DNA from: Armatimonadota bacterium
GTDB lineage: Bacteria > Armatimonadota > Fimbriimonadia > Fimbriimonadales > Fimbriimonadaceae
Direction: 5' to 3'
Length of the DNA stretch: 64,000 bases
Assembly (NCBI GenBank): GCA_016223145.1
Contig: JACRPN010000009.1
Span: forward strand, 62,001 to 126,000
Shown: positions 33,421 through 58,026 of the stretch, one piece after another
How positions within the stretch are numbered: the stretch's first letter is position 1
How the letters are laid out: every line of letters starts with the position of its first letter
The notes under the pieces: generated by a model
The model's input: only the letters and a program-made list of their open reading frames with translations
What the model was told of the DNA's origin: nothing
Databases searched by the model: none
Translations under genes and position numbers: made by a program

Positions 33421-33524
33421 CCGCCGGAATCTACCCTGAACCCACCGTGAACAATCGGCGCAATGAACCGTTTGAGCCACGTAAGTGTTCTAGTGTCTGA
33501 TTGGACCTCACGGAGCGAATAGCA

Positions 33525-34304
33525 ATGAAAATCATGCGAATTTTAGCGGCCGGCGTGTTGGCGTTGGCAATCTCGTCGATCTATGCCCAAGGCGGCGGCG
33601 CAGCCGGCGCCAGGGGCCAAGGCGGACCCGGAGGAGCGGGCGGTGCGCGAATGGGCGGACCCGGCGGCCAAGGCGGCATGCGCATGGGCGGCATGGGTCG
33701 CGCTGGCGGCGGACGCCTTCTTCTCAACGCCTCGGTTCAGAAAGAGCTCAAGATGACCAAAGCCCAGATCGACAAGGCTCAGAAGACCTTTGGTGAGGGC
33801 GCCGGCGGGGGAGCGGGGCGCGGACCCGGAGGCGGCGGACCTGGTGGCGGTGGAGCTGCCGGTGGTAGGGGCCAAGGCGGACCCGGAGGCGGCGGAATGA
33901 CTGACGCTCAGCGCGAGCAGCGACGTCTCGACATGGAGAAGCAGATCAAGAGCGTGATCAATGCGACCCAGTTCGCGCGTTATCAGCAGATCACGTTGCA
34001 GATCGGGGGTGCAGGGGCGCTCACGCGGCCCGACATCGCCAAGCAGGTCGGCATCACCGACAAGCAGGTCAAGCAGATTCGCGACATCCAGCAGAAGCAG
34101 TTTGAGTCCATGCGCGGCCAGATGGGCGGGCCTGGCGGAGGCGGCAGGGGCCCCGGTGGCCCTCCGGCTGGAGGCGGCAACATGATGGCGCAGTTCCAGA
34201 AGATGCGCGAGGAAACCAACAAGAAGGTCATGGCGGTCCTCACGCCTCAGCAGAAGAAGAAATGGGAGTCCATGCTCGGATCCCCTTTCAAGCTGCAGAT
34301 GTAG
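33525..34304 (+). CDS. Secreted Gly-rich protein with LTxxQ-like repeats (paralogue 1)
   Basis: 259 aa from ATG 33525. The signal peptide (MKIMRILAAGVLALAISSIYA) is followed by glycine-rich linkers (about 23-62, 92-128 and 200-220) that separate three helical segments. These carry related motifs: LLLNASVQKELKMTKAQIDK, ALTRPDIAKQVGITDKQVKQ and VMAVLTPQQKKKWESMLG. The LTPQQ/MTKAQ/ITDKQ pattern resembles Spy/CpxP-type LTxxQ proteins, periplasmic chaperones or metal sensors, so that is the best guess. A clear paralogue lies 635 bases downstream of its stop. Confidence 0.75.
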   Translation: MKIMRILAAGVLALAISSIYAQGGGAAGARGQGGPGGAGGARMGGPGGQGGMRMGGMGRAGGGRLLLNASVQKELKMTKAQIDKAQKTFGEGAGGGAGRGPGGGGPGGGGAAGGRGQGGPGGGGMTDAQREQRRLDMEKQIKSVINATQFARYQQITLQIGGAGALTRPDIAKQVGITDKQVKQIRDIQQKQFESMRGQMGGPGGGGRGPGGPPAGGGNMMAQFQKMREETNKKVMAVLTPQQKKKWESMLGSPFKLQM

Positions 34305-34487: not shown

Positions 34488-34832
34488 ATGGCAGACATCC
34501 ACCAATGGGTCACCACATCCAATGCGTTCGACGGCTATCGGGTTGTGCGGGGCTTTGGGGTCGTCCGAGGCATCACGGTCCGAAGCCGATCGGTCATCGG
34601 CAGCTTCGGCGCGGGAATCCAGACGCTCTTTGGAGGCAACATCACGCTCTACACGGAGCTCGCCGAAACGGCCCGCGCCGAGGCCTATGAGCTGATGATC
34701 CAGCATGCGGCCGCCATTGGCGCCAACGCGATCATCGCGATGCGGTACGACGCGAATGAGATTACGTCGGGCGTCACCGAGGTTATCGCCTACGGTACTG
34801 CCTGCTACATCGAGCCGATCCCTCAGCCCTGA
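34488..34832 (+). CDS. YbjQ/UPF0145-type protein
   Basis: 114-aa cytoplasmic protein of the YbjQ (heavy-metal-binding-like) family. Supporting segments are [40 protein letters not shown] and [13 protein letters not shown], matching the family's 'G-v-G-----s' and 'A-----A---GANAVI-v-yd' pattern. The biochemical role of the family is unclear. It has its own space between the terminator and the second LTxxQ paralogue. Confidence 0.88.
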
Positions 34833-34938
34833 CATCCCATCCATCGGTGGGCGCGCCCTGGGACCAATGAACCCTCAAACCCAGGCGTCGTCTTGGCTTG
34901 ATAGATCTCGCCCTGAGCTGGGCGACAAAGGAGATCGA

Positions 34939-35694
34939 ATGATGAACACACGAACTTGGATGACGATTGGAGCGGTTGCCGTATCGCTCACGACCGCCCT
35001 GGCCCAAGGCGCAGGCACGACCAGCACCACTCAAGGCAACGATCAGAAGGGTGGCGCCCAGCAAAGGCAGCAGCGCCAACAGCGCCAAGGCTTTCAGGGA
35101 CAGCTTCAGATGGCCGGACCAGGCCTTCTGCTCAACGAAGCCGTGCAGAAAGAACTCAAGATGACGCCTGAACAGGTCGAGAAAGCGAAGACGGCGTTTG
35201 GCGCCAACCGCCAACAAGCTAGGGGCGCAGCCCAAGGCCAGAGGCGCCAGGGTGCCGGGGGCGGTGCTGGACAAGACGTGCGCCAACTCCTCGGAAACCG
35301 TCAGCAGGAAGTCGAGAAGCAGGTCAAGGAGATCCTGGACGAAAAGCAGTTCGCCCGGTTCCAGCAACTGCAACTTCAGCAGCAGGGCGCTGCGGCGCTC
35401 GTGCGGCCGGACGTCGCCGACAGGGTCGGCCTGAGCCAGGAGCAGAAGGACAAGATCCGTCAGATCCAGCAAGAAAGCTTCGCCTCGCTGCGCGAGGCCA
35501 TGCAAGCCGCGCGGACCGGCCAGGGCGCCGATCGTCAGGGCGCGATGGCCCAGATTCGCGAGAAGATGATGAAAGCCCGCGAAGAGTCGAATGCGAAGAT
35601 CATCGGCATGCTCTCCGCCGAGCAGAAGAAGAAGTGGGACGACCTCCTCGGCCCGGCCTTCAACTTCGAGCAGATCAGGATCGGGAAGAAGTAG
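34939..35694 (+). CDS. Secreted Gln-rich LTxxQ-like protein (paralogue 2)
   Basis: 251 aa from ATG 34939 (AAAGGAGA at 34927-34934; a second ATG at 34942). After a signal peptide (WMTIGAVAVSLTTALAQ) comes a Gln/Arg-rich linker in place of the Gly-rich one in paralogue 1. The same three helical blocks then follow: GLLLNEAVQKELKMTPEQVE, ALVRPDVADRVGLSQEQKDK and IIGMLSAEQKKKWDDLLGPA. The blocks align with the paralogue over their whole length while the linkers differ, so the helices are the conserved working part. A periplasmic Spy/CpxP-like role is inferred. Confidence 0.75.
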   Translation: MMNTRTWMTIGAVAVSLTTALAQGAGTTSTTQGNDQKGGAQQRQQRQQRQGFQGQLQMAGPGLLLNEAVQKELKMTPEQVEKAKTAFGANRQQARGAAQGQRRQGAGGGAGQDVRQLLGNRQQEVEKQVKEILDEKQFARFQQLQLQQQGAAALVRPDVADRVGLSQEQKDKIRQIQQESFASLREAMQAARTGQGADRQGAMAQIREKMMKAREESNAKIIGMLSAEQKKKWDDLLGPAFNFEQIRIGKK

Positions 35695-36926: not shown

Positions 36927-38369
36927 CTATCGAGCCTTGCCACCAAGCCCAAGCCTCTCCGCCAATGCACTCGACAGAACCCCATCTGGGTCAAGTTCCG
37001 ACTTGAAAGATCGCAGTGAGGCCAGAGCCTCGGCTCCCAGATACCTCTCCACATCCGAGGGACGCAGCGTCGAGTCCTTTGCCAGATAGAACCGCCCTTT
37101 CGACTCCAGCACCAGGTCGTTCATCCGGTGGCAGAGGTCCCAGAGCCGCTCCCGGTTCGCCTGCGTGACCTTGAAGTCCATCGCCAGCGAGTAGCCGTCT
37201 ACCCCGTGCGAAAGCAAAAACGGATCCGGCCGGTGACGCTTCATGACCACCAGGAAACTCTCAAGCCTCGCCTCCCTCTGCATCTGAAGCTGCCGCCCGA
37301 ACACGTAGCGTGCGTGCTCCTTCGGGACGAAGCTCTGGTACTGGATGAACCCATCCGGCAGGTAGGCCCAACGCCAGTTCGGCACGTAATCCAACAGAAA
37401 CGAGAAGCCCACCAGAGTATCGCTATAGGGCTTGCCGTCGCCCACCTTTCGTCCGGCAAAGCTCTTGGCGGCGTTGATCAGCCGCATCCCAAAGCGCCGG
37501 TTGAACCAGCGCAGCTTGCGCCAGACCGCCGACTTGGGGAAGATGCCCATGACCGTGTCGGGCAGGTCCTGATGGCTTGGGCGCAGGGTCATGCGCGCAC
37601 TCTCGGCCTTCGTGTACCAGGCCGCGTGGATGAGCCCCCGGCCCGCCGACTTGCCGTGCCCGAAGGCGTCGATCCAGCTCACCAAGTAGTCGGCTTCGGA
37701 CTCGTATTGCTCGAACGCCGCGAACTGCTCCTCCCAGTTGGCGCAGCTCACGGGCAACACTTGCAGCTCGCCGCATTCGACCTTCTTCAGCTGGAGCTTC
37801 ACCCGCACGATCGCGCCCAGCAGCCCTGCGCCCGAGATGGCCGCGAAGAACAGCGGGTCTGTGGGCGTCAGCGTGCGCAGCTTGCCATCGGGCGAAAGCA
37901 GATCTAACTCCAACACGTGCTCGCCGAGTGTGCCTTCCCTGAAGTTGTTCTTGCCGTGAATGTTCATGGCAAGCGCGCCGCCGAGGGTCGGGAACATGGT
38001 GCCGCTGACCACCGGGAGCCACCAGCCGTCTTCGAGCGTGTGGCGCCAGACCTCCTCGATCGTCACGCCGCCTTCTCCTTCAAAGATCCCGGTCTCGGGG
38101 TCCCATCCAAGGATGCGGTTCATCCGACAGAGGTCGATCAAGATGGATTCGGGAAGGTAGTTGGCATCGCCGTAGCTTCGGCCAGCGCCCCGAAGGCAGA
38201 CTTTCCGGCCGGTGTCCCTCGCCAGGTTGAAAAGGGCGGCGATCTCCTCGGCCCGGGTTGGCCGGAACACAAACGCGTCGGCGCCGCCGAGCATCCCAAA
38301 CCCTGCGACATGTTCGACTCGGTCGGGCGTGACGCCCAGACCCATCCCCATCGGAGCCTCGACCTTCAC
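36927..38369 (-). CDS. dprE1: DprE1-like FAD-dependent decaprenylphosphoryl-ribose 2'-oxidase
   Basis: 480-aa FAD oxidoreductase of the VAO/PCMH type. The start GTG 38369 overlaps the SDR stop (GTGA) with GGAGG eight bases before it; an in-frame ATG at 38429 would overlap that gene by 64 bases. It has KVCLRGAGRSYGDANYLPES (FAD binding), MFPTLGGALAMNIHGKNNFR, SGAGLLGAIVRVKLQLKKV and a C-terminal cap with RFYLAKDSTLRPSDVERYLG, as in DprE1/ALO-family proteins. DprE1 oxidises polyprenyl-phospho-ribose to the 2'-keto form, which DprE2 reduces to the arabinose epimer. Directly coupled to a DprE2-like gene and near a DPPR synthase-like gene, which makes this assignment strong. Confidence 0.85.
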   Translation of the reverse strand: MKVEAPMGMGLGVTPDRVEHVAGFGMLGGADAFVFRPTRAEEIAALFNLARDTGRKVCLRGAGRSYGDANYLPESILIDLCRMNRILGWDPETGIFEGEGGVTIEEVWRHTLEDGWWLPVVSGTMFPTLGGALAMNIHGKNNFREGTLGEHVLELDLLSPDGKLRTLTPTDPLFFAAISGAGLLGAIVRVKLQLKKVECGELQVLPVSCANWEEQFAAFEQYESEADYLVSWIDAFGHGKSAGRGLIHAAWYTKAESARMTLRPSHQDLPDTVMGIFPKSAVWRKLRWFNRRFGMRLINAAKSFAGRKVGDGKPYSDTLVGFSFLLDYVPNWRWAYLPDGFIQYQSFVPKEHARYVFGRQLQMQREARLESFLVVMKRHRPDPFLLSHGVDGYSLAMDFKVTQANRERLWDLCHRMNDLVLESKGRFYLAKDSTLRPSDVERYLGAEALASLRSFKSELDPDGVLSSALAERLGLGGKAR

Positions 38370-39091
38370 AGTTTCAACCTCCGGAAGATGAAGCTCGGAA
38401 TGCGCTTGATGATCGCGAAGATCAGCCAATGCTTGAAGCTCAAGTAGTGCTCCCCTGTCCGAGAGGCTTTCCTCAGAATGATCTCTGCCGCTTTGCGCGT
38501 GGGCATGAGAGAAGAGGCAGGCAGATGGTCGGTCATCTCGGAGGCTGTGGGTCCGGGCTTGACGGTCACCACCGTCACCCCTTGCCTTGCCAATCGGTTT
38601 CTGAGGGCCTCCATATAGGTGGCGACAGCGGCTTTACTGGTGTTATAGACCGGCTGGCCGCTGCGCCCCCGGTCGCCGGCGACGCTTCCGAGCGCGACCA
38701 TCGTGCCGCGTTTGGCGCCTTCGAAGCGGATGGCGGCCTGATTCATCCAGGCGATGCAGCCGAGCAGGTTCACGTCGACGATCTCGCGGTCCTTGGCGAA
38801 GGCGTATTCGTGCGCGCCGACATCAGGCATGACCCCAGCGGCGTAGATGATGAGATCCAGCCCGCCAAGCTGTTTGGTGGCCTCCTGAAAGAGATCCGGC
38901 ACGGCGTCGGTGTCGTGGACGTCGTGGACAAAAGTGATGACGCGGTCAGGGAGTTCGGCGCGAAGTTTCTCGAGGCGGTCTTCCCTACGTGCAATGGCGG
39001 CGACCTTGCAGCCGCGTTCGGCCAGCAGGCGCGTCAGCGCCTCCCCGATCCCTGAGGACGCTCCCACCACGATCGCCGTGTTCCAGTTCAT
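38366..39091 (-). CDS. dprE2: DprE2-like short-chain dehydrogenase
   Basis: 241-aa SDR from ATG 39091. TAIVVGASSGIGEALTRLLA is the NAD(P) loop, DLIIYAAGVMP the NAAG-type strand, and VYNTSKAAVATYMEALRN the catalytic YxxxK region (Y-N-T-S-K). PSFIFRRLKL at the C-terminus resembles the membrane-associated tail of DprE2. It is translationally coupled to the DprE1-like gene, with which it would epimerise polyprenyl-phospho-ribose to polyprenyl-phospho-arabinose. The open frame upstream of 39091 consists of repeat family C and is not part of the protein. Confidence 0.83.
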   Translation of the reverse strand: MNWNTAIVVGASSGIGEALTRLLAERGCKVAAIARREDRLEKLRAELPDRVITFVHDVHDTDAVPDLFQEATKQLGGLDLIIYAAGVMPDVGAHEYAFAKDREIVDVNLLGCIAWMNQAAIRFEGAKRGTMVALGSVAGDRGRSGQPVYNTSKAAVATYMEALRNRLARQGVTVVTVKPGPTASEMTDHLPASSLMPTRKAAEIILRKASRTGEHYLSFKHWLIFAIIKRIPSFIFRRLKL

Positions 39092-39103
39092 CGGCCCGTT
39101 ATC

Positions 39104-39276
39104 TGTAGCCGCAGGTTCCGTGCCTGCGCACTCCTTCCGTCCTCGCAATCCCGTAGGGCTCCTGTAGCCGCAGGTTCCGTGCCTGCGCACGAGTCCCTTG
39201 TACCCCTGCCAAAGCCTGCGGCTACCCTTAACTACCCCTATCAAAACGATACGCAGGCAAGGAACCTGCGGCTACA
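39104..39276. repeat. Family C repeats: two direct and one inverted copy
   Basis: TGTAGCCGCAGGTTCCGTGC, CTGCGCAC occurs at 39104-39131 and 39163-39190; an inverted copy (GCAGGCAAGGAACCTGCGGC, TACA) lies at 39253-39276. A shorter relative, AAAGCCTGCGGCTAC, is at 39211-39225. Each has an internal dyad (GCAGG/CCTGC). They fill the space between the DprE2-like start and the UbiA-family gene end. Confidence 0.9.
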
Positions 39277-39284
39277 GATTCACC

Positions 39285-40208
39285 TTACCGGTCCAGCAGC
39301 GGCACCTGCACGCCGCTGAGCGCAAAGACCGCCGACGCCACAAAGAGCACAACGCTCGCAAGGACGTGCGGGTCCCTCAGCAGGATGTCCGCCGGCTCGC
39401 CGCCCTCCTCCTTCGTGAAAACGAGCAAAAGGTAGCGGGCGATTCCATAGGCCACAAAGAGCGTGCTCAGGATCAGGGCAGGGAACTTACGGGCGGTCTC
39501 GCTCTCGATGGCGTAAATGCCATAGCAAAGGGTGCTGGCGGTCGCCGTGGCGATGACCAGCGCATCGAGTGCTCCCTTCGAATAGCCTCCCAGACTCTCA
39601 CGACTCGCGAGCTTGGAGTCGCCCTGCAGCAAGAACTCGTGCCGTCGCTTGGCAAAGCCCAGCATGAGCGCCAGGGAACCGGTACAGAAGAGCAGCCAGC
39701 CCGAAATCGGCACCCAGATCGCCGCCGCGCCGAGCACGGCGCGAAACACGAACCCGGTGCTGATCAGGAACACGTCCGCGACCGGCACGGCCTTGAACGC
39801 GGCGTTGTAGAGCGACTGAAGCAGGAGGTAAGCGCAGAGGATGGAGAGGCTCGAGGTGTTCAGCAAGAAGCCTCCCATCGCGAGGCCGCCCACCAGACAG
39901 ATCGCGGCGATGATCCAGGCGGATCCGGTCGTAAGGGCGCCTGAGGCCAAAGGGCGGTTCTTGCGCTCCGGGTGTTCGCGGTCGCGGTTGACGTCCAGGA
40001 TGTCGTTGACGGCGTACGTCCCCGAGCTCACCAGGCACATCGCGCCAAAGGCGATGATCGCCAGGCGCACGGCCTCAGGGTCGCGGAACTTGCCGGCAAA
40101 GAGGAAGGCGGCGAACACGAGCAGGTTCTTGGTCCACTGCCTGACGCGCAGCAGCCTGATCACCGGCCCGAGTCGCATAGCTGGATTATGGACGTTCCTG
40201 GAACTCAT
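39285..40208 (-). CDS. Polyprenyl-phosphate phosphoribosyltransferase (DPPR synthase-like, UbiA family)
   Basis: Integral membrane UbiA-superfamily enzyme, about 307 aa and eight to nine TMs. Start chosen at ATG 40208 (GAGGCG upstream); ATG 40178 is possible. It has RVRQWTKNLLVFAAFLFAGK, then the diagnostic NDILDVNRDREHPERKNRPL, and later YNAAFKAVPVADVFLISTGF with VFRAVLGAAA, which match mycobacterial Rv3806c-type DPPR synthase far better than menaquinone or haem prenyltransferases. It would transfer 5-phosphoribose from PRPP to polyprenyl phosphate, the step before DprE1/DprE2. A phosphatase for the 5-phosphate is not seen nearby. Confidence 0.85.
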   Translation of the reverse strand: MSSRNVHNPAMRLGPVIRLLRVRQWTKNLLVFAAFLFAGKFRDPEAVRLAIIAFGAMCLVSSGTYAVNDILDVNRDREHPERKNRPLASGALTTGSAWIIAAICLVGGLAMGGFLLNTSSLSILCAYLLLQSLYNAAFKAVPVADVFLISTGFVFRAVLGAAAIWVPISGWLLFCTGSLALMLGFAKRRHEFLLQGDSKLASRESLGGYSKGALDALVIATATASTLCYGIYAIESETARKFPALILSTLFVAYGIARYLLLVFTKEEGGEPADILLRDPHVLASVVLFVASAVFALSGVQVPLLDR

Positions 40209-40511: not shown

Positions 40512-41213
40512 TTGATCAGCGAGGGTCTCACCGAGAAGAGAAGCCTTGACCTTGGCAAGAAGCAGGAGCGCGACACCGTTTTGAGCCTGCCGAACGTTCC
40601 CATCAAGGTCATTCATTACCGCAAGCGAAAGCGTGGCCTGGACGTATTGGGCTCGCTTCTACTGCTTGTCCTATTTTCGCCACTCATGGCGATCATCGCC
40701 CTTTTGGTCAAGCTCTCCAGCCCAGGACCTGTCCTTTACGCCTCGACCCGCGTCGGCCGCGGCGGCAAACCGTTTGCCTTCCTCAAGTTCCGATCCATGT
40801 ACACGGACGCCGATCGCAGGCTCGCCGAGCTCAAAACGAGCAACGAGAAAGACGGCCCCATCTTCAAGATGAAGAACGACCCGCGCATCACGCCGGTCGG
40901 CCGCTTCCTGCGCAAGTACAGCCTCGACGAGCTTCCCCAGCTTTTCAACGTTTTCAAGGGCGACATGAGCCTCGTCGGCCCCCGCCCGCCGATTCCTCAC
41001 GAGGTCATTCAGTACGACGAGTATTGCCAGGAGCGCCTGAGCGTTCGCCCGGGGCTCACCTGCTATTGGCAAATCCAGGGCCGCAGCAATCTGAGCTTCG
41101 ACGAGTGGATGGAGCTGGACCACAAGTACCTTCGCGAGATGGGGCTTTGGACGGACCTGATGATTCTCATCAAGACGCCACTCGCAGTCCTCAAAGGCGA
41201 CGGCGCGTACTAG
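40512..41213 (+). CDS. Undecaprenyl-phosphate sugar phosphotransferase (short PGT)
   Basis: Monotopic phosphoglycosyl transferase that primes polysaccharide synthesis by putting a sugar-1-phosphate on undecaprenyl phosphate; 233 aa. TTG start with AAGGAGAG seven bases upstream. After a basic stretch (HYRKRKRGLDVLGSLL) and the re-entrant membrane helix (LLLVLFSPLMAIIALLVKL) come ASTRVGRGGKPFAFLKFRSM, the catalytic acidic region SLDELPQLFNVFKGDMSLVG, PRPP, and VRPGLTCYWQIQGRSNLSFD. All are canonical. It lacks the four extra N-terminal TMs of WbaP-type proteins. Confidence 0.95.
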   Translation: MISEGLTEKRSLDLGKKQERDTVLSLPNVPIKVIHYRKRKRGLDVLGSLLLLVLFSPLMAIIALLVKLSSPGPVLYASTRVGRGGKPFAFLKFRSMYTDADRRLAELKTSNEKDGPIFKMKNDPRITPVGRFLRKYSLDELPQLFNVFKGDMSLVGPRPPIPHEVIQYDEYCQERLSVRPGLTCYWQIQGRSNLSFDEWMELDHKYLREMGLWTDLMILIKTPLAVLKGDGAY

Positions 41214-41236: not shown

Positions 41237-42058
41237 TTGAACCCGACAATGGTATTACCGCTGCGCATGCAGCCAGGTACCCTCGAACTCATGGCAGCCG
41301 TTTCCCATCCAGGCCGGGCCTTCCCGGAGGGCACCGTCATGGGCTTTCCCGTGGCGGCATGCACCCGCGAACAGATGGCCGAGCAGGTCTGTAAGTGGGC
41401 TGTAGAAGGAACCCCCCGATCGGTGTTCGCCTCCGCCGTACACTTCGCCATGGAGGCGCGCGACCATGCCAAGTACCTGGAGATCGCCAAGCGCGCCGAT
41501 GCCATCGTGCCTGATGGCGTACCGCTGGTCTGGGCGCTCCGCAAGCAGGGTTTTACCGAGCAGCCGAGGGTCGCAGGGCCGGATCTCTTGCCGGCGGTCT
41601 GCGAAGCCGCTGCCAAGCACGGCATTCCCGTCGGCTTCTATGGGGGCACCGAAGAGATGGTCGAGACGTTGGCCAAGAACATGGCGAAGAGCTATCCGAA
41701 GCTGAAGGTGGCCTATGTGGTCTCTCCTCCCTTCCGAAAGCTGACCGAGGACGAGGACAGGCAGGTCCGCGCCGACATCGTGGCCTCCGGAGCCAAGATC
41801 CTGTTTGTCGGCTTGGGCTGTCCGACTCAAGAGGCCTGGATCGACGAGCATCGCGACCTGCCGGTGGTCAAACTCGGTCTTGGAGCGGCTTTTGCCTTTC
41901 ACGCCGGAATGCTCAAGCGCGCGCCAAAGTGGATGCAGAAGACGGGCACCGAATGGGTGTACCGGCTCGTGATGGAGCCCCGGCGGCTTTTTATGCGCTA
42001 CTTCCGGCACAACCCCCGGTTCCTGGTGTCCCTCCTGCTGCGCAAGGGCGTTCGGTAG
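41237..42058 (+). CDS. WecG/TagA/CpsF-family glycosyltransferase (GT26)
   Basis: 273 aa, cytoplasmic face of the membrane. It has the GT26 signature: ADAIVPDGVPLVWALR, VGFYGGTEEMVETLAKN, AKILFVGLGCPTQEAWIDEH and KLGLGAAFAFHAGMLKRAPK. Family members add the second sugar (for example ManNAc) to the lipid-linked primer made by the preceding enzyme, which fits the 23-base spacing. The start is uncertain (TTG 41237, or ATGs at 41249, 41267 and 41291). Confidence 0.93.
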   Translation: MNPTMVLPLRMQPGTLELMAAVSHPGRAFPEGTVMGFPVAACTREQMAEQVCKWAVEGTPRSVFASAVHFAMEARDHAKYLEIAKRADAIVPDGVPLVWALRKQGFTEQPRVAGPDLLPAVCEAAAKHGIPVGFYGGTEEMVETLAKNMAKSYPKLKVAYVVSPPFRKLTEDEDRQVRADIVASGAKILFVGLGCPTQEAWIDEHRDLPVVKLGLGAAFAFHAGMLKRAPKWMQKTGTEWVYRLVMEPRRLFMRYFRHNPRFLVSLLLRKGVR

Positions 42059-45568: not shown

Positions 45569-47677
45569 CTAGTTGCCGCGGAGGTTCGGGACGCTCAGTC
45601 GATAGGAGTCAATCTGAAGTCCCATCGTGTTCAGGTTCACTGGTGTGAATCCGATTTGGGCCGCCGGTGTGCCGCTGAGGATCGAAAAATCCCAATGAAG
45701 CGGATCGCGCAGACAAGCCACCGTGTCTACCGCATTATTCGTCACCGAGTTCAGAGTCAGCGAGAAGGCATTGGCCGAATTGATGATGACGCCGCTGTCG
45801 AGCAGCACGTTGGTCGATACCAAGTTGCGCTTGGCGTAGCGAAGGTCCTCGGTCGGATAGAGGGGCAGCTTGGGGTATTTGGTCCACGGAGCCTTGGTGA
45901 CGTCATAGGTGTACAGCCGGTTGTACACGATACCGCCCGGAAGGACCGAGGCTGCGGCCCAGAGCAGCCCGCGAGAGTCCAGCACCATCGAATAGGTGCA
46001 TCGGAGCATCATGTTGTTCTTGATGACGTTGTCGTTTCCGCCACCATTCTGAACGCCGTTGTAGCAGTCGACCATCACGTTGCCAGTGATCGATGTACCG
46101 CTGACGAAGTCGTCCAAATACACGGCGGTGACTCGGTTTACGCTCGCGGAGAGGTCCTGAAGGGCCGGAAGCTTGCGGAACAGGTTGTCCCGCACGACGT
46201 TGCCTTGATAGGTTAGGTCGCGCCCAACGTAGACGGCGCCGGTGTCGCCGGTCTCCTTGCAGACGTCAAAGATCTCGTTGCGCTCGACGAGGTGGTCATT
46301 GCCGCTGAAGATGACGCCGTATTCCGGCTGATCGTAGATGGCGTTGTTCGCGATGCGCGCGCCGACGCCCTCGACCTGGATACCAGCATCTCCGGTCTGG
46401 ACGAGCCGCCCGCCCCGGTAGATCTGGTTGTTGAGGATCTGGTTGTTGCTGCTCGTGAGCGTGGCTCGGCTTCCCCCTGAGAGGAAGATGCCGCCATAGC
46501 CGGTGTCCCGAATGTCGCAAGCCTGCACCTTTAGATCATTGCCGGTCATCGTGATGGCCCGGTGGCCCAGGTTCTGCATTGCGCAGTTCAGGAACTTGAG
46601 GTTCGAGCAGGTGTAGCCGACGATGCCTCCTGCCCGGCTGTTCTTGAAAACAAACCCCTCAAGCGTGATGTTCGAAGCTTGGACGAACTGAACGAAGACC
46701 CCTTCGAGCAGGGTCACTTCGGTGTTCTTCGGTGTCCCCGAGTCTTGCGACCAGAAGTACATCTTCCCACCTGCGCGGTCCACATAGTATTCGCCAGGCG
46801 CGTCCAGTTCCTCAGGAATGTTGACGAATCGATAGCGCATCTTCGCCTTGATGTTGTAAGGGGGTGCGCTTGCCAGCGTTACCACGCCCAAGGCCCTGTC
46901 ATAGCCTGCAAGGGCGATCGTATGGTCGGCCCAGTGGTTGCCAAAGTAGCCCTGCACCCAAACGTCGGAGAGCGACCTCCACGAGGCGGGCCTTGCCGCG
47001 TCGCTCTGAAAGACCGCAGAACCCACCTTGGCGTTGACTTTTGCCCAGCCCGTGTTCGGCCAGGCGGCAAGCCGTGTCGGGGAGCCGTTCTGAACCAGCT
47101 CAAGAGGGGCGGGGCCCATGGTTTGCCAGGCGCCGCGCGGCTTAAGGGTGCCGGCATTCGGCACCCCGGCAGCTGAGAGGCTCAGCTCGTAGATGTAGGG
47201 CGCTGCGGCGGGACTGAAGCGGCTCATCATCCCCGGGTCGGACGCCTTTGCCCAGCCGGAAACCGGCATGCCCCCGTCGAAGACGGCCCCACGAGGTGTT
47301 TGGGAGCGAAAGATGATCGGTCCCGTGGAAGTCCCCGAGTCGGTGTTTCCGAGGGTCAGGGTTGAGGACATTGCGTAGCGCCCGGGCAAGAACTGTACGA
47401 CTGCTCCCTGCGAGGAGAGCAAGTTCTGGGACCGCAGCAGCCTAAGGCGCGCCTTGGCGCCCTCAAAAGTTCGGAGGGGCCCGTTGGTGTTTGTGCTATT
47501 CGGGCTGGAGAGCGTCCCAGCCCAGGAGTCGTTGCCGTTGGTCGCGACATAGAGGGTCGTGGGCGCACCGAGGGCGCCGGCAGACAGTACGAAGGTCAGC
47601 AGTCCCAGAAGGACGCGGACGGGAGAGCGAAGCAGGGGTTTGGGGGTCCCCTTTCGGAAAGAACAGAACTGAATCAT
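45569..47677 (-). CDS. Secreted right-handed beta-helix protein (paralogue 1)
   Basis: About 702 aa from ATG 47677. A signal peptide with hydrophobic core VRVLLGLLTFVLSAGALGA precedes TTLYVATNGNDSWAGTLSSP, the start common to many beta-helix proteins. A small beta-sandwich region (about 150-290) is followed by the coil region (about 300-560): YTCSNLKFLNCAMQNLG, DLKVQACDIRDTGYGGIFLS, NQILNNQIYRGGRLV, ARIANNAIYDQPEYGVIFSG, NHLVERNEIFDVCKETGDTG. These N-rich rungs suggest a polysaccharide lyase, hydrolase or epimerase-like fold, but no catalytic site can be assigned. It shares its whole layout with the upstream neighbour. Confidence 0.85.
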   Translation of the reverse strand: MIQFCSFRKGTPKPLLRSPVRVLLGLLTFVLSAGALGAPTTLYVATNGNDSWAGTLSSPNSTNTNGPLRTFEGAKARLRLLRSQNLLSSQGAVVQFLPGRYAMSSTLTLGNTDSGTSTGPIIFRSQTPRGAVFDGGMPVSGWAKASDPGMMSRFSPAAAPYIYELSLSAAGVPNAGTLKPRGAWQTMGPAPLELVQNGSPTRLAAWPNTGWAKVNAKVGSAVFQSDAARPASWRSLSDVWVQGYFGNHWADHTIALAGYDRALGVVTLASAPPYNIKAKMRYRFVNIPEELDAPGEYYVDRAGGKMYFWSQDSGTPKNTEVTLLEGVFVQFVQASNITLEGFVFKNSRAGGIVGYTCSNLKFLNCAMQNLGHRAITMTGNDLKVQACDIRDTGYGGIFLSGGSRATLTSSNNQILNNQIYRGGRLVQTGDAGIQVEGVGARIANNAIYDQPEYGVIFSGNDHLVERNEIFDVCKETGDTGAVYVGRDLTYQGNVVRDNLFRKLPALQDLSASVNRVTAVYLDDFVSGTSITGNVMVDCYNGVQNGGGNDNVIKNNMMLRCTYSMVLDSRGLLWAAASVLPGGIVYNRLYTYDVTKAPWTKYPKLPLYPTEDLRYAKRNLVSTNVLLDSGVIINSANAFSLTLNSVTNNAVDTVACLRDPLHWDFSILSGTPAAQIGFTPVNLNTMGLQIDSYRLSVPNLRGN

Positions 47678-47792
47678 GGTCACCTTTGCCAAGCAAATGA
47701 GCGCTCGTCGCGAGGGCGCGCGACGGCAGCTGCAACGGTGCAGCAAAGCAAGAAGCCATCAGCCAGTCCATCCGATACGCCAGTGGAGATTG

Positions 47793-47875: not shown

Positions 47876-49999
47876 TCAGGGCAATCCTTGGATGGACTGC
47901 GTTCGAAGGTCGGGCACGGTCAGGCGATAGCTGTCCGCGACCAGACCCATCGTCGAGGGAAGGATGTCGGTGAACGGAATCGTCGAGGCATTGGACCCAT
48001 TGACGACCTTGAAGTCGTAGTTCGCCGGATTCATGAGCGCGGCCTTGCCGTCAGACACATTGCTCGCGACCGTGTTCGGCGACACCAGAAAGACGCTGTC
48101 TGAGACGATCTGGCCAGAGTCGATGTAGAGGTTGTACCGAAGCAGGTTGCGCTCCGGAACGCGCAGGTCGCTGGACAAATAGCCGGACAGAAAGGCGTAT
48201 TTGGTCCAAGGCGGCGTGTTCAGATTGAACGCTTGCAGGCGCGTGTAAACCGTGCCGCCAGGTTGGACGGCAGCCGAGGCCCAAGTCATGCCACGTCCGT
48301 CGGCGACGATGCTCTCCGACGTGTCGATGAACATGTTGTTCGTGGCCTTGTTGTCCTTGCCGCCACCGATAAGGAGGCCCGACGAGCAGCGCACGAACGC
48401 GTTGCCCGTGACGGTAACGCCGCTCATAAAGTCGTCGAGATAGACCCCGACCACGCGGCAGATCTCGGAGTTGGCCTGCTTGGCGACGACATCCCGAATC
48501 AGGTTGTTTCGAACGATGTTGCCCTGCATGGTCATGTCGCGGCCGATGTAGATCGCGCCAGTGTCGCCCGTCTCCAGGCACACTCGAAAGATCTCGTTGT
48601 TCTCGATGACGATGTCATTCCCGGAGAAAAGAACCCCGTACTCGGGGATGTCGTAGATCGCGTTGTTTGCGACCCTGGTGCCCACGCCCAAAACCTGGAT
48701 GCCCGCTTCGGAGCTTGGCACCAGTCGGCAAGTGTCATGAACCTGGTTATTGGTGATGACGTTGTTGTCGGGTGTCAACGTGGCGCGATCGCCGCCGGAG
48801 ACGTAGATGCCTCCGTAACCGGTGTTGCGGATGTCGTTGGCGTGGATGAGGCACCCGTTGCCGATCATGTAGAGCGCGCGGTTGCCGAGGTTCTTGAACT
48901 CGCAGTTGACAACGTCGATGTCGTTGCTCGAATACGCCACGAGGCCGTGCCCTCGCCCGTTCTTGAATACAAACCCTTCAAACCTCATGTTGGATGCTGA
49001 GGCAAACTGCACGAGCGGGCCCTCTAGGAGGGTCACTTCGGTCTTGGCGGACCCGATCGGGCCGATGGGCCAGTAGTAGATTCGACTCAGGGTTCGATCG
49101 ACGAAGTACTCGCCAGGTCGGTCGAGTTCCTCTAGGGCGTTGATAAGCCGATACCGCATGCCTTCCTTGATCCCGTAGCTGGGGCTAAGGGCGAGCGAGA
49201 TCGCGCCGGTGGCTCGGTTGTAGGAGCTGATGGGAAAGGTGTAGTCAGCCCAGTTGTTGCCGAAGAAGCCCTGGCACCAGGTGTCGGAAAGGGACTGCCA
49301 GGCTCTTGAGCGCTGGGAGCCCGCTTTGAACGAATTGGAGCTTGTGGCCTGCCCGATGGTGGCCCAGCCATACTGCGGCCAGGAGGCGAGATTGGCTGGA
49401 GAGTCATCGACGAGCAACTCCAGCGGCGCGGGGGTCACCGACATCCAGGCGCCTCTTGCTTTAAGCGTCCCCAAGTTCGAGACTCCCTGTCCCGCGAGGT
49501 CGGCGCAGAGCACGCGCTTGGCGGCAGACGCCGGCAGACGCTTGAGAACGGTCTTGTCCTTGACCATGAACCAGGCGCTGATCGTCTTCCCCGCATCCAG
49601 GATCGCGCCGCGCGGGACGACCGACTTGTAGACGATCGGGGCGGCAGCCGTTCCGGAATCAGCGGCGCCAAAACCAAGCGTCGCAGACAGCTTGTAGGTG
49701 CCCGGCATCACGAGAACTTGGGCACCTTCTGCGGAAAGCGAGTTCGACTGCTTGAGCTGGCGGATGCGTGTCTTCGCGCCCTCGAGCGTGGCCTTAGGGC
49801 CGTCGGTCTGCTGCGCGTTTGGCGCGCTCAAGGAGCCCGACCAGGTGTCCTTGCCGTTAGGCGACACATAGATCGTTGTCGGCGTGGCCAGGCCAATCGC
49901 TGCCAATGCGCCGATCAGTGCCGTCAGTGCAGTCTTCGAGTTTGTGCGCCGGTGAGAGCCACCCCATCGCGGCACATGAGTTCGCAGTACCCAAGCCAT
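47876..49999 (-). CDS. Secreted right-handed beta-helix protein (paralogue 2)
   Basis: 707 aa from ATG 49999, with signal peptide (TALTALIGALAAIGLAT) and then PTTIYVSPNGKDTWSGSLSA. The domain order and most rungs match paralogue 1: FKNGRGHGLVAYSSNDID, CLIHANDIRNTGYGGIYVSG, TRVANNAIYDIPEYGVLFSG, IENNEIFRVCLETGDTGAIY, and both end SYRLTVPDLR. A tandem duplication is the simple explanation. Export and location inside the polysaccharide locus suggest that the pair modifies or cleaves the product. The 198 bases between the two genes hold a hairpin with a T-run on the plus strand (about 47793-47838). Confidence 0.85.
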   Translation of the reverse strand: MAWVLRTHVPRWGGSHRRTNSKTALTALIGALAAIGLATPTTIYVSPNGKDTWSGSLSAPNAQQTDGPKATLEGAKTRIRQLKQSNSLSAEGAQVLVMPGTYKLSATLGFGAADSGTAAAPIVYKSVVPRGAILDAGKTISAWFMVKDKTVLKRLPASAAKRVLCADLAGQGVSNLGTLKARGAWMSVTPAPLELLVDDSPANLASWPQYGWATIGQATSSNSFKAGSQRSRAWQSLSDTWCQGFFGNNWADYTFPISSYNRATGAISLALSPSYGIKEGMRYRLINALEELDRPGEYFVDRTLSRIYYWPIGPIGSAKTEVTLLEGPLVQFASASNMRFEGFVFKNGRGHGLVAYSSNDIDVVNCEFKNLGNRALYMIGNGCLIHANDIRNTGYGGIYVSGGDRATLTPDNNVITNNQVHDTCRLVPSSEAGIQVLGVGTRVANNAIYDIPEYGVLFSGNDIVIENNEIFRVCLETGDTGAIYIGRDMTMQGNIVRNNLIRDVVAKQANSEICRVVGVYLDDFMSGVTVTGNAFVRCSSGLLIGGGKDNKATNNMFIDTSESIVADGRGMTWASAAVQPGGTVYTRLQAFNLNTPPWTKYAFLSGYLSSDLRVPERNLLRYNLYIDSGQIVSDSVFLVSPNTVASNVSDGKAALMNPANYDFKVVNGSNASTIPFTDILPSTMGLVADSYRLTVPDLRTQSIQGLP

Positions 50000-50204
50000 G
50001 CTTTCTGTATTCCGTTGCAGGCTCAAATGGACGCCCGTACATATGCCATTCCAACGAAATGAAGGGGCCGTCTCAACGTGCCACCGTCGCACTCAACGTG
50101 CGAGCACGCCCCGGGGGCTGCCCGGCAAGACTGCCGGTATGCTACGCGAGCAAAGCTGGAGCGGCAGCCAGAGCGGGCTCGCGTCGGTATTCAGAAGGCG
50201 ATCA

Positions 50205-54589: not shown

Positions 54590-56665
54590 ATGTATAAGGT
54601 TCACTTTCGTCGAATAGCCTTCTTCGGGGTTCTAGGTCTGATTGCAGGACTCGTCCTGTCTGTACTAAGCCCCAAAATCTATGAAGCTCAGACGGGCTTG
54701 ATCGTCGGGACGTCCATGAGGGTAGGGGCATCGAGCGTTCCGGACGACGTGGCCAACATCCTGTATCCTGGCGTGGCCCAGGACCCCATGAGCGAATCGG
54801 ACCTCCTTCGGGGGCAGGGCGTGTTCTTCCGGGCGCTTCAAAACGTCGCGGACCGTCGCGGAGACCCCGGCTTGGTGAACAAGTTCCAGGAGCTCTATGC
54901 GACCTACGACGTCCAGAACCAGCGACAGGTCAACCTGATTTCCAACATTGCGATTTTGTCGGTCAAATACACCGATCCCCAGCTTGCGGCGGACATCGCC
55001 AACGAGATCGCCGTGGTCTATAACGAGACCCGGCGTCGAACCATGAACGAGCGCGTGGCAAAAGCCGTGGATTACGTCAACGGCAACGTGTCGGCGCTGC
55101 AAATCAAGCTGAAAGAAGCTGACAAGGCCCTCGAGGACTATCGTCTCAAGAACAGAGTCGCCCAGTGGGAGACCGCGCAGGGTGCCGTAACGAACGCAAC
55201 GTTCGCCTTCGCCAAAGAGGTCAGCGACACGATGGCGGGCATCGGCCAGCTTGAAGGTGAGCTCCAATCCGACAAGAGGCTCCTAAAGGACCTCTCGGCG
55301 CGCCACAAGAGCCAAGTCCAGACCACCCGCAACCCGGTGGTCCAGCAACTGGAGGGCTATCTCACCGACCTTCAGAAGAGGCGCGCCGAACTAGCGGGAC
55401 GCTATATGGACGATGCTCCAGCGGTGCGGGAACTGGACGCAGCCATTCAAGACATACAGGGGCGGCTGACGCGCGAGCGGACCAACAACCCTGACGTGAT
55501 CGCCGGTTCGCTTGACAATTTGGACACCGTGACGGAGCAGGTGCGCTTGAGGGTCGCCACCAACGAATCGCGCCTCAAGGGCCTTAAGCGGGCTTTGACC
55601 CAGCAGCAGCAGGCGGCCCAGGTCAATGAAAACCAGAAGAACTCGATCATCCTAGACAGCTCTGCGATCCGTGAGCTCGAGCGCGAGCGAGCCATCTTGG
55701 AGGGCAGCTACTCCCGCTATAAGAGCGTCGCCGAAGAGCTTGTGACGCGAGAGAACACTGCGGCAGCCGCGGCGGAGGTGTTCTTCGACGCCGTTCCTCC
55801 TCGAGAACCTGTCGCGCCAGACGCAGTGAAGCTGACCTTGATCTGCCTGGTCGCAGGGATTTGCCTTGGAACGGTCTACAGCTTCAGCCTGGAAACGATG
55901 AAGGTCCGAATCCATACGGCCTCCCAGCTTCACGATCTTACGGGACTGCCGGTGGTCGCCTCCATGCCCATTCTGACTCGAGGTACGCCGAGGCAGCGAA
56001 CGATGGCCCTCGCGCAAGGAAACAAGGGTCCGAGCGAGGCCTTTCGATACCTGGCGATCTCGTTGCTGGCCTCGGAAAGCTCCGACCTTGGCTCCGCCGT
56101 ATTCACGAGCGTTACCGGAGTCAATCGGGCCCAGCCGGCGACTGAGTTTGCGATTGCATCGGCGAAGATGGGCAAGCGCGTGCTGCTCGTGGACTGCGAT
56201 TTCGGCGACAGCCTGATCTCGTCCGCATTCGAAATGTCGGACAAGTCCGGTGTGGCTGAAATGCTCTCCAAAGCGGCTCTGCCTTCCGGAGATTCGGATG
56301 CCATCGGATATGCGACCAAGCACAGCGGGCTTTCCGTCTTGCCAGTTGGCGAAACCGGCGGCTCCGTGGTCTCCGACTTCGGCCTGACAACACTGGCCAC
56401 GCTCGCAGCCGGGCTTCAAGAGAGGTTCGACTTGGTCGTGTACGTGGTCCCAGCTTGCGACGGATCGTCTGACGCGGCATTGATCGGTTCTCAGGTGGAC
56501 CAAGTGTTCCTGGTGGTGTCTGCACGAAGGACGCCATTCCGGAACATCCCGATGGCTTGTGAACTGATGAAGCGCGCCGGAGCCAAGGAAGTCGGCGTCG
56601 TGCTGGCTGAAGCGACGCCGGGCGAGGAGCCGTTCACCGGCCAAGCCGGACGATCGGCGGCTTAG
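54590..56665 (+). CDS. Wzz/BY-kinase-like chain-length protein with inactive P-loop
   Basis: 691-aa inner-membrane protein. TM1 (FFGVLGLIAGLVLSVLS) is followed by a Wzz domain, long coiled-coil region (about 150-390), GNVR-like segment (RELERERAILEGSYSRYKSV), TM2 (LTLICLVAGICLGTVYSFSL) and a cytoplasmic BY-kinase-like domain (about 455-680). In that domain the Walker A that should read PGEGKS is TGVNRAQPATEF, so the catalytic Lys/Ser are gone, while Walker A' (GKRVLLVDCDF) survives. No C-terminal tyrosine cluster exists. It probably acts as a chain-length/export scaffold without kinase activity. First gene of a Wzz-Wzy-Wzx set behind a good promoter. Confidence 0.9.
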   Translation: MYKVHFRRIAFFGVLGLIAGLVLSVLSPKIYEAQTGLIVGTSMRVGASSVPDDVANILYPGVAQDPMSESDLLRGQGVFFRALQNVADRRGDPGLVNKFQELYATYDVQNQRQVNLISNIAILSVKYTDPQLAADIANEIAVVYNETRRRTMNERVAKAVDYVNGNVSALQIKLKEADKALEDYRLKNRVAQWETAQGAVTNATFAFAKEVSDTMAGIGQLEGELQSDKRLLKDLSARHKSQVQTTRNPVVQQLEGYLTDLQKRRAELAGRYMDDAPAVRELDAAIQDIQGRLTRERTNNPDVIAGSLDNLDTVTEQVRLRVATNESRLKGLKRALTQQQQAAQVNENQKNSIILDSSAIRELERERAILEGSYSRYKSVAEELVTRENTAAAAAEVFFDAVPPREPVAPDAVKLTLICLVAGICLGTVYSFSLETMKVRIHTASQLHDLTGLPVVASMPILTRGTPRQRTMALAQGNKGPSEAFRYLAISLLASESSDLGSAVFTSVTGVNRAQPATEFAIASAKMGKRVLLVDCDFGDSLISSAFEMSDKSGVAEMLSKAALPSGDSDAIGYATKHSGLSVLPVGETGGSVVSDFGLTTLATLAAGLQERFDLVVYVVPACDGSSDAALIGSQVDQVFLVVSARRTPFRNIPMACELMKRAGAKEVGVVLAEATPGEEPFTGQAGRSAA

Positions 56666-56679
56666 GAACTCCGTACAGC

Positions 56680-58026
56680 ATGGCGATCACCGCAGCCCCA
56701 ACACGACCTGTACTCGGCCAAAAGGCCGGACAGGACGTGAACGTCGGGTTCATCTGGTGGGCGCACATTTTGGTGGTTCTGCCATTCGCGGGCTCGTATG
56801 TGTTCGCCAACTTTCTTCAGGCCGTCACGATTATCCGAAACGGATCGGTCGTCCTTGGTGCCCTGTGGCTGGTTATCGCGTTTGTGCGATACCGCGTTCA
56901 AGCGCGGTGGTGTCTCCCCGTTGCGCTTCTCCTGTTTCTTCAGATTTGGGGAACGTTCAGCTCGGCGTTCGTATCGGCGACGTTTGGGCGCAGCATCCCG
57001 TTCAACTATGCGGACCTGCTGTTCCTGCGCTACATCTATATGTTCTTCGTGGCCTCGATTCTGATCCAGATTCAGCCGAGCCAACGACTTCACCTGATGC
57101 GCACGATCATCGTCGTGTGCGGCGCAAACGCCCTCGTCCAGTACCTGCAGTTCGTTCACTTCGCACCGGCGTTTGCCCTATCTCAGGCCGACACTCTAGG
57201 TTACGACCTGCAGAACTGGGACCAGCGCGCCGGAACGCGGGCGGCAGGTTTCTACACATTTAGCGGCAACAGCGCGTTACCGGATGCGCTGGTGGCCGCG
57301 TGGTTCGTGGGCCAGCTCGCGGTGCGAAAGCTCTCGGCCTGGGAGCATTTCGGCTTCTTCTTCTTTGTGGGCGGCTCGTTCATTGCGCAAGCCCGCACCC
57401 ACCTTCCGGGGCTCCTACTGGTCTTTGCCTTTTATCTCTTCTTCCTCATTCGCAGTGAACGCGAGAGGGCGCCTGCGATCATCTCGGGGATCTTCGCAGG
57501 CATTGGAGTGCTCCTCGCCGTAGCATACAACCGACTTGCCTACATTTTTGGCGAGAGCTTCCTCAGTGCGGCGAACCTGAGATACCGCTCCTCGGTCGCC
57601 TGGAACCAAGCCAACGCGATCCTCAAGGACTTCCCTTGGACGGGTGTGGGCCCAGACCCGTCCGTCATCTCGAACCGTTCGATCTTCGCGGACAAGTATT
57701 CCTTGGAGCGCGCTCTGGAGCAAGGCTGGTTGGCACTTCAGGCGCAATTCGGCGTCGTCGGTCTCCTCCTTGGCATGATCGCCATTGGAGCCACGATCTT
57801 CTCGCCGATGCTCATCCTCCCCAAACCGCAGGAAAGCGCGCAGCGGAAGGGACTCGTGATCTCCCTGGCTCTGATGGCGACGTGCATCGCCCTGGGGATG
57901 ATGGGCAACACGGTGCTGCACTGGGAGACCTCGTTCTATGTCTTCCTGCTGACTGCAGGACTCTTCATGCGCACCACTCAAGAGCAAAGCGACTTCACGC
58001 AGGCCAGCTACGGCCTCAAGGCGTAA
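56680..58026 (+). CDS. O-antigen polymerase/ligase-type membrane protein (Wzy/WaaL family)
   Basis: 448 aa with about 11-12 TM segments (for example WWAHILVVLPFAGSYVFANF, GSVVLGALWLVIAFV, GLVISLALMATCIALGMM). The large periplasmic loop has LRYRSSVAWNQANAILKDFP, then WTGVGPDPSVI, matching the Wzy_C pattern (R---W--a------P--GvG). It would polymerise or ligate lipid-linked repeat units on the periplasmic side. It begins 14 bases after the Wzz-like gene. Confidence 0.88.
   Translation: MAITAAPTRPVLGQKAGQDVNVGFIWWAHILVVLPFAGSYVFANFLQAVTIIRNGSVVLGALWLVIAFVRYRVQARWCLPVALLLFLQIWGTFSSAFVSATFGRSIPFNYADLLFLRYIYMFFVASILIQIQPSQRLHLMRTIIVVCGANALVQYLQFVHFAPAFALSQADTLGYDLQNWDQRAGTRAAGFYTFSGNSALPDALVAAWFVGQLAVRKLSAWEHFGFFFFVGGSFIAQARTHLPGLLLVFAFYLFFLIRSERERAPAIISGIFAGIGVLLAVAYNRLAYIFGESFLSAANLRYRSSVAWNQANAILKDFPWTGVGPDPSVISNRSIFADKYSLERALEQGWLALQAQFGVVGLLLGMIAIGATIFSPMLILPKPQESAQRKGLVISLALMATCIALGMMGNTVLHWETSFYVFLLTAGLFMRTTQEQSDFTQASYGLKA

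Follow-up and report, generated by a model that had tools for sequence, protein, structure and literature searches.

A divergent DprE1/DprE2-like enzyme pair and a UbiA-family partner predicted to make a lipid-linked pentofuranose in Fimbriimonadaceae

D-Arabinofuranose is a rare sugar, most familiar as a constituent of the cell wall in tuberculosis bacteria. A run of three genes in a didermic member of the Fimbriimonadaceae (Armatimonadota) raises the question of whether a lipid-linked donor of this sugar may also be made there. An earlier note on the window (the whole 64-kb stretch of DNA analysed) had read the three genes as a complete route to polyprenyl-phospho-arabinofuranose. The genes are real and correctly read, and they lie, as the note had described, in the order UbiA, short-chain dehydrogenase/reductase (SDR) and FAD oxidase on one strand, the minus strand:

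39285-40208, minus strand: UbiA-family polyprenyl-phosphate phosphoribosyltransferase (PPPRS / DPPR synthase-like), predicted from profile, fold and residues
38366-39091, minus strand: DprE2-like SDR, predicted 2-keto reductase, from NCBIfam matches and signatures
36927-38369, minus strand: DprE1-like FAD oxidase, class A, assigned from NF053785, model fold and active-site residues
39105-39127, 39164-39186 and 39253-39275 (span 39105-39275): three copies of a palindromic repeat in the UbiA-SDR gap (0 expected by chance)

The UbiA gene starts with ATG at 40208 or, alternatively, at 40178, and its product contains the motif NDILDVNRDREHP that had been pointed out. The SDR starts with ATG at 39091. 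The oxidase starts with GTG at 38369 and shares GTGA with the TGA stop of the SDR, so the proposed translational coupling of these two genes is real. UbiA and the SDR are uncoupled at this locus, being separated by the repeat-bearing gap of about 190 bp; in relatives, unlike here, they are adjacent or overlapping.

Three observations identify UbiA as a predicted polyprenyl-phosphate phosphoribosyltransferase. First, it scores 234.7 bits on NF008977, narrowly above the curated cut-off of 234, and quinone-type UbiA models score far lower. Second, it matches the M. tuberculosis DPPRS structure (PDB 8j8j) with E 1e-34, and the same entry is its top Foldseek match (E 6.7e-12), other UbiA folds following at 2e-6 or worse. 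Third, PPPRS activity has been tied to N, D, D and D in loop II and R and E in loop IV (PMC11127046); all six are present, as N93, D94, D97, D101, R213 and E216, and are invariant among 8 aligned homologues.

The oxidase is clearly related to DprE1. It matches NF053785 over its full length (E 2.5e-79) and the DprE1 structure 4aut (E 7e-48), and the top 49 PDB matches of its model (pLDDT 85.6) are all DprE1. On the same NF053785 equivalog, however, it reaches 267.6 bits against a curated cut-off of 500. The subfamily to which it belongs, which we call class A, scores 258-289 bits, canonical Armatimonadota copies 434-489 and rhizobial DprE1-like proteins (Rhizobiaceae) 401-410, the last likewise under the cut-off. 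Identity is about 30% to canonical DprE1 and about 28% to the mycobacterial enzyme, and class A falls outside the canonical DprE1 clade in the tree (support 1.0, midpoint rooting). By sequence, the oxidase is thus a sister-subfamily protein outside the membership of the DprE1 equivalog. The SDR presents a similar picture. The best of its 219 NCBIfam matches is PRK07102 (171 bits), the model that also names Gram-negative DprE2s (274-362 bits). It has the SDR catalytic motifs and shares with DprE2 the SVAG[DE]R signature (SVAG[DE]R...YxxxK) and a C terminus, IPxxIFRRL, of the signature IPxxIF[RK]R. Its 102 bits on the DprE2 equivalog NF053786 lie under the cut-off of 250, which canonical Gram-negative DprE2s also fail (165-192 bits). 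Among 115 class A loci, 105 have the SDR directly upstream of the oxidase, and contig ends account for most of the others. We therefore place the two proteins, as judged from their sequences, with DprE2 and DprE1 but as a divergent sister subfamily, because of the approximately 30% identity, the reversed gene order, the sub-equivalog scores and the replacement of Cys387 by Ala. Of the identities first proposed, UbiA and the kinship to DprE1 and DprE2 stand, but the oxidase and SDR are divergent sisters (267.6 versus 500 and 102 versus 250 bits).

The reading that we prefer, with a probability of about 70%, is that the three enzymes together build a pentofuranose carried on polyprenyl phosphate, which is most likely D-arabinofuranose and would be used beyond the cytoplasmic membrane. 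UbiA would first transfer ribose-5-phosphate from PRPP to the polyprenyl phosphate. By homology and genomic context, the class A oxidase would oxidise the 2'-OH of the lipid-linked ribose, and the SDR would reduce the ketone with inversion to give lipid-phosphate-arabinofuranose. Like the predicted enzyme identities, the idea of a lipid-linked donor holds up. It is very improbable, and already disfavoured, that a generic FAD oxidase, SDR and ubiquinone- or menaquinone-type UbiA prenyltransferase merely happen to lie together. The SDR superfamily is large and the DprE2 model score is under its cut-off, as such a chance assembly would allow, but UbiA passes the PPPRS cut-off with quinone-type models far behind, the oxidase and UbiA folds best match DprE1 and DPPRS, and the synteny is conserved.

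The active site of the oxidase allows a closer comparison. Equivalents of Y60, H132, K134, W230, Q334, Q336, K367 and K418 are invariant in 115 class A proteins, and the catalytic and flavin-side residues are unchanged. All class A proteins have His for Phe369 and Ser for Asn385 at the active site, and the loop region that covers it carries an insertion. Alanine takes the place of Cys387, the covalent target of benzothiazinones (BTZ), in this oxidase and in 114 of 115 class A proteins. Since this change has been tied to resistance (PMC4608729), a BTZ sensitivity test would probably be negative for this oxidase.

The class A-specific His, Ser and loop insertion could also point to another product. 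The same lipid-linked ribose might be turned by the class A pair into another epimer, for example the 3-epimer xylofuranose, or into a different sugar, leaving the envelope free of D-arabinofuranose. Citrobacter O2 makes xylofuranose from the same precursor, though via a single GalE-like SDR (PMC11127046). Against this, xylofuranose needs just one SDR, the catalytic and flavin-side residues are unchanged, the SDR bears DprE2 signatures, and class A alternates strictly with canonical DprE1/DprE2 inside one family. Exactly one DprE1 lineage occurs in 81 of 85 Fimbriimonadaceae genomes: class A in 67 and the canonical one in 14, never both. The canonical Armatimonadota pairs ("class B", for example L048, L049 and L068) resemble class A in occurring once per genome and replace it in those 14 genomes; unlike class A, they have the oxidase before the SDR (E1 then E2 in the 14), score 434-489 bits on NF053785 and have no adjacent UbiA. 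As the two lineages never share a genome, it is suggested that they do the same job, and we regard a different epimer as unlikely.

The conserved neighbourhood speaks to whether UbiA belongs with the pair at all. Coordinates were listed for 62 Fimbriimonadaceae genomes that carry class A, and 55 of these have the UbiA-SDR-oxidase arrangement, with UbiA directly upstream. Like the profile and structure matches of UbiA and the oxidase, this conserved order is far above chance. In another family (L066) the genes form an operon of independent arrangement, SDR-oxidase-UbiA, in which they overlap by 4 bp. Class A is found in at least seven phyla, and UbiA of this kind is present in 47 of the 50 class A genomes from other phyla. 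In Chloroflexota it accompanies class A in 17 of 18 genomes, versus a baseline of 79/121 (one-sided p about 0.005). Co-occurrence is nevertheless weak evidence, because UbiA is near-universal in Armatimonadota, also without any DprE1 (269 of 291). The reduced genomes G133 and G134 are without UbiA, the oxidase, the GtrA half and both GT-C candidates discussed below, a co-loss that is confounded by the reduction itself. These genome-wide statements are based on family searches. One may then ask whether the SDR and oxidase act on a different substrate unrelated to UbiA, their adjacency in Fimbriimonadaceae being incidental. Outside this family the pair is mostly found without an adjoining UbiA, and in the phylum UbiA is near-universal whether or not the pair is present, as this would predict. 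The linkage in 55 of 62 genomes, the separately arranged operon, the replacement of the pair by canonical DprE1/E2 and the absence of any PDB fold nearer than DprE1 argue otherwise, and we consider such a substrate still less likely than another epimer.

If the trio does make a lipid-linked pentofuranose, further steps are needed, and "complete route" was an overstatement: the window is without a 5'-phosphatase, a flippase and an arabinofuranosyltransferase. The best candidate for removal of the 5'-phosphate is the HAD half of a protein encoded on another contig (C4), in which the only GtrA of the genome (PF04138, 66.7 bits) is fused to a YqeG-type HAD phosphatase (TIGR01668, above cut-off). 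The GtrA half may in turn flip the donor, a specificity inferred from the proximity of UbiA and GtrA in relatives. The HAD-GtrA fusion occurs in Fimbriimonadaceae; in the sister family f2, each of the 7 genomes with a match has HAD, UbiA and GtrA as neighbours (one set being divided by contigs), and UbiA and GtrA are adjacent in at least 12 genomes of the sister families f3 and f4. The HAD half may be an ordinary PGP phosphatase, since it is kept in genomes without UbiA. In three-component pentofuranose systems a phosphatase of the HAD PRP or PAP2 type would be expected; three PAP2 proteins in the genome are further candidates but show no link to the trio.

For the transferase, the earlier note saw no obvious one in view, and no GT-C or Emb/Aft-like enzyme was found in the window. 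The note had also suggested that a membrane protein nearby or outside the window might be a new one. In the polysaccharide region, the proteins with several transmembrane segments resemble Wzy, Wzx and acyltransferases. A PMT_2 search gave four GT-C candidates, on other contigs and none linked to the trio. Transfer to an envelope acceptor might be carried out by one of them, perhaps an ArnT-like 492-aa protein (C23) or a 570-aa PMT_2 protein (C8), whose order-wide profiles are close to that of UbiA. Neither was chosen, as many envelope genes would match the UbiA profile likewise. A search of solved structures with the 570-aa protein gave no match.

The surface-polysaccharide genes beside the trio were considered as the acceptor pathway:

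40512-41213, plus strand: polyprenyl glycosylphosphotransferase (Bac_transf; PF02397 E 5.9e-68, TIGR03025 above cut-off), context only
41237-42058, plus strand: WecG/TagA/CpsF glycosyltransferase (PF03808 E 1.8e-57), context only
56680-58026: Wzy-like protein
58057-59580: Wzx call, from a sub-threshold Pfam match

These genes are real, but the Wzx call is sub-threshold and the link is weak, because in several relatives and other genera the trio adjoins unrelated housekeeping genes. The Wzx/Wzy cluster is therefore not supported as the acceptor pathway.

Comparison with known systems shows what is familiar here. The mycobacterial decaprenylphosphoryl-arabinose pathway comprises Rv3806c (DPPRS), Rv3807c (phosphatase), DprE1, DprE2 and Rv3789 (flippase). 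Homologous UbiA, DprE1-like and DprE2-like enzymes, active-site residues and the DprE1 fold are shared; here, in contrast, the SDR precedes the oxidase, Cys387 is Ala, oxidase identity is about 28%, and the candidate HAD-type phosphatase and GtrA-type flippase are in one fused protein. Mycobacteria were presented as the best-known setting, but Gram-negatives that make D-arabinofuranose in this way have already been described (PMC11127046, PMC12369383), so what we predict is an established pathway in a divergent and near-universal form. The three-component extracytoplasmic pentofuranose systems (Kelly et al. 2024, PMC11127046) and the P. paraeruginosa pilin D-Araf system (PMC12369383) have the same logic of PPPRS, dephosphorylation, epimerase pair, flippase and GT-C in didermic hosts. 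In the present case the genes do not cluster with those for a flippase or transferase, the epimerase pair is of a different lineage, and nearly all members of a bacterial family have the system, which elsewhere is specific to strains or serotypes. Rhizobial/alphaproteobacterial loci (Agrobacterium pusense IRBL74_p nod region, L082; Sinorhizobium alkalisoli, L226) have UbiA, GtrA, FAD oxidase and SDR as partners too, and their SDRs match the same PRK07102. They differ in the order UbiA-GtrA-DprE1-DprE2-membrane protein, with GtrA between UbiA and DprE1, DprE1 before DprE2 and a membrane transferase candidate in the operon, and in having a DprE1 of the canonical clade. Searches of the open-access literature gave no account of arabinose in the envelopes of Armatimonadota, which is a weak negative.

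More tentatively, and at somewhat less than even odds, class A may represent a previously unrecognised polyprenyl-phosphate-ribose epimerase lineage in mostly uncultured bacteria of at least seven phyla. It would provide entire didermic families with a core sugar of their envelope, either D-arabinofuranose or a related pentofuranose, the fused HAD-GtrA protein serving as phosphatase and flippase in Fimbriimonadaceae. If the prediction is true, DprE1 homologues that naturally have Ala for Cys387, and whose active-site loops are altered, would be useful for understanding the drug target, and attention is drawn to one fused protein as candidate phosphatase and flippase and to a few candidate transferases. 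D-Arabinofuranose would then be a basic envelope part of a whole didermic family, and probably also of many Chloroflexota, Planctomycetota and Myxococcota, and no longer a sugar special to mycobacteria that a few Gram-negatives happen to share.

The UbiA, short-chain dehydrogenase (SDR) and FAD oxidase genes lie in this order on the minus strand from 40208 to 36927 of the window, which spans G000:C9:62001-126000 of a 3.87-Mb source genome that is 97% complete. Together they would make a lipid-linked arabinofuranose donor. They and their neighbours in the window are:

39285-40208, minus strand: UbiA protein
39105-39127, 39164-39186 and 39253-39275: REP-like palindromic repeats, GCAGGCACGGAACCTGCGGCTAC
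38366-39091, minus strand: SDR
36927-38369, minus strand: FAD oxidase, with a GTG start at 38369 that overlaps the SDR stop codon as GTGA
33501-34304 and 34705-35694, plus strand: two related glycine/glutamine-rich proteins, in tandem close to the trio
45569-47746 and 47876-50092, minus strand: paralogous pair of right-handed beta-helix proteins, within the polysaccharide region
54590-56665, plus strand: 691-aa protein directly upstream of the Wzy-like gene

The best-supported step of the pathway is the PRPP-dependent formation of polyprenyl-P-ribose-5-P by the UbiA protein. Its score of 234.7 lies just above the cut-off (234) of the curated decaprenyl-phosphate phosphoribosyltransferase model in NCBIfam, and it matches the solved M. 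tuberculosis enzyme (E 1e-34), which is also the nearest solved structure to its predicted fold. All six residues reported as important in the Citrobacter enzyme (N247, D248, D251, D255, R366 and E369; PMC11127046) are found in it, as NDILDVNRD and KRRHE.

The oxidase and the SDR belong to a divergent sister subfamily (class A), which is separate from canonical DprE1 and DprE2 in both trees. The oxidase aligns with DprE1 over its full length, scoring about half the curated cut-off, and the first 49 PDB places for its structure model (pLDDT 85.6) are taken by DprE1 structures only. Among the DprE1 contact residues (PMC6128881), Tyr60, His132, Lys134, Trp230, Gln334, Gln336, Lys367 and Lys418 are kept across 115 class A oxidases; Asn385 is changed to Ser, Phe369 to His and, in 114 of the 115, Cys387 to Ala. 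The SDR carries GASSGIG, YxxxK, the SVAG[DE]R stretch and an IPxxIFRRL C terminus, as in DprE2. Its top NCBIfam family is PRK07102, from which SDRs in rhizobial nod loci and other Gram-negative loci also take their name.

Judged by entry names, class A occurs in Armatimonadota, Chloroflexota, Planctomycetota, Myxococcota, Acidobacteriota, Sumerlaeota and the Ignavibacteria/Bacteroidota area. The SDR is immediately upstream of the oxidase in 105/115 class A loci; the first six canonical Armatimonadota loci to be examined all show the reverse order. A DprE1-like gene is present in 81 of 85 Fimbriimonadaceae genomes; two of the other four are of low completeness and two (G133 and G134) are reduced, at 1.5 Mb. 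Fourteen genomes have the canonical pair and lack class A (for example, loci L048 and L049), and the remaining carriers have class A only. Such replacement is the pattern expected of two enzymes with the same job.

Of the 62 Fimbriimonadaceae genomes with listed coordinates, 55 have UbiA one gene upstream of the class A oxidase. An independent arrangement, SDR-oxidase-UbiA with 4-bp overlaps, is found in another family (L066). In other phyla UbiA seldom adjoins the pair; it is present in 47/50 class A genomes there. In Chloroflexota the baseline is 79/121. PPPRS-type UbiA (polyprenyl-phosphate phosphoribosyltransferase) occurs in 269/291 Armatimonadota genomes, with or without the pair, so its mere presence says little. 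The argument is carried by the linkage and the replacement pattern.

In relatives the UbiA and SDR genes overlap or almost touch, in contrast to the spacer of about 190 bp in the window, which holds the three palindromic repeats. Related copies occur on another contig of this genome (L199, 6755-6777 and 12934-13115), with paired stem changes GCAGG/CCTGC, GCGGG/CCCGC and GCCGG/CCGGC. Since both sides of the stem vary together, the repeats may represent a dispersed hairpin element. The beta-helix paralogues are possibly polysaccharide-active enzymes; that at 47876-50092 has a weak GH141-domain match. The 691-aa protein has no Pfam match.

Candidates for the missing steps lie outside the window:

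G000:C4:154536-155636 (L199:9534-10637, minus strand): HAD-GtrA fusion
C23:46104-47579: ArnT-like GT-C candidate (PDB ArnT, E 2.7e-16)
C8:320822-322531: PMT_2 protein, GT-C candidate

The source genome encodes a single GtrA, which is fused to a YqeG-type HAD phosphatase in a 367-aa protein, HAD forming the N-terminal and GtrA the C-terminal half. Nearly all Fimbriimonadaceae genomes have the full-length fusion. Sister families have separate genes, HAD-UbiA-GtrA in f2 and UbiA-GtrA in f3 and f4, in f3 often within an exopolysaccharide cluster that appears exosortase-type on sequence inspection. GtrA would flip the UbiA-derived donor. The HAD half could plausibly act as the 5'-phosphatase; this is less certain, because HAD is also kept where UbiA is absent, and YqeG-type enzymes are similar to PGP phosphatases. 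G134 retains HAD and has lost the GtrA half. Both G133 and G134, which are near-complete, lack UbiA, DprE1, both GT-C candidates named here and the GtrA half; they may form a reduced lineage that depends on a host or partner and has a simpler envelope. The source genome encodes further GT-C candidates, and none of the candidates is linked to the trio. Sequence and structure comparison establishes the family placement, the conserved residues, the order of the genes, the replacement pattern and the HAD-GtrA fusion, whereas the reactions, the arabino configuration, the flipping and the envelope acceptor are inferred.

PPPRS-type UbiA is near-universal in Armatimonadota, also in genomes that have no DprE1, and GtrA often follows it within an exosortase-like exopolysaccharide cluster (L174-L177, L187). 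This points to ribose or another pentose as a core lipid-linked sugar.

The logic of the pathway is already known: it is shared with mycobacterial DPA synthesis and the three-component systems of Kelly et al. 2024 (PMC11127046), who had listed DprE1/E2 homologues for Araf-containing glycans, and D-Araf is carried by P. paraeruginosa pilins (PMC12369383). What distinguishes Fimbriimonadaceae from those systems is a divergent epimerase lineage that is near-universal in one family, with dispersed genes and a HAD-GtrA fusion.
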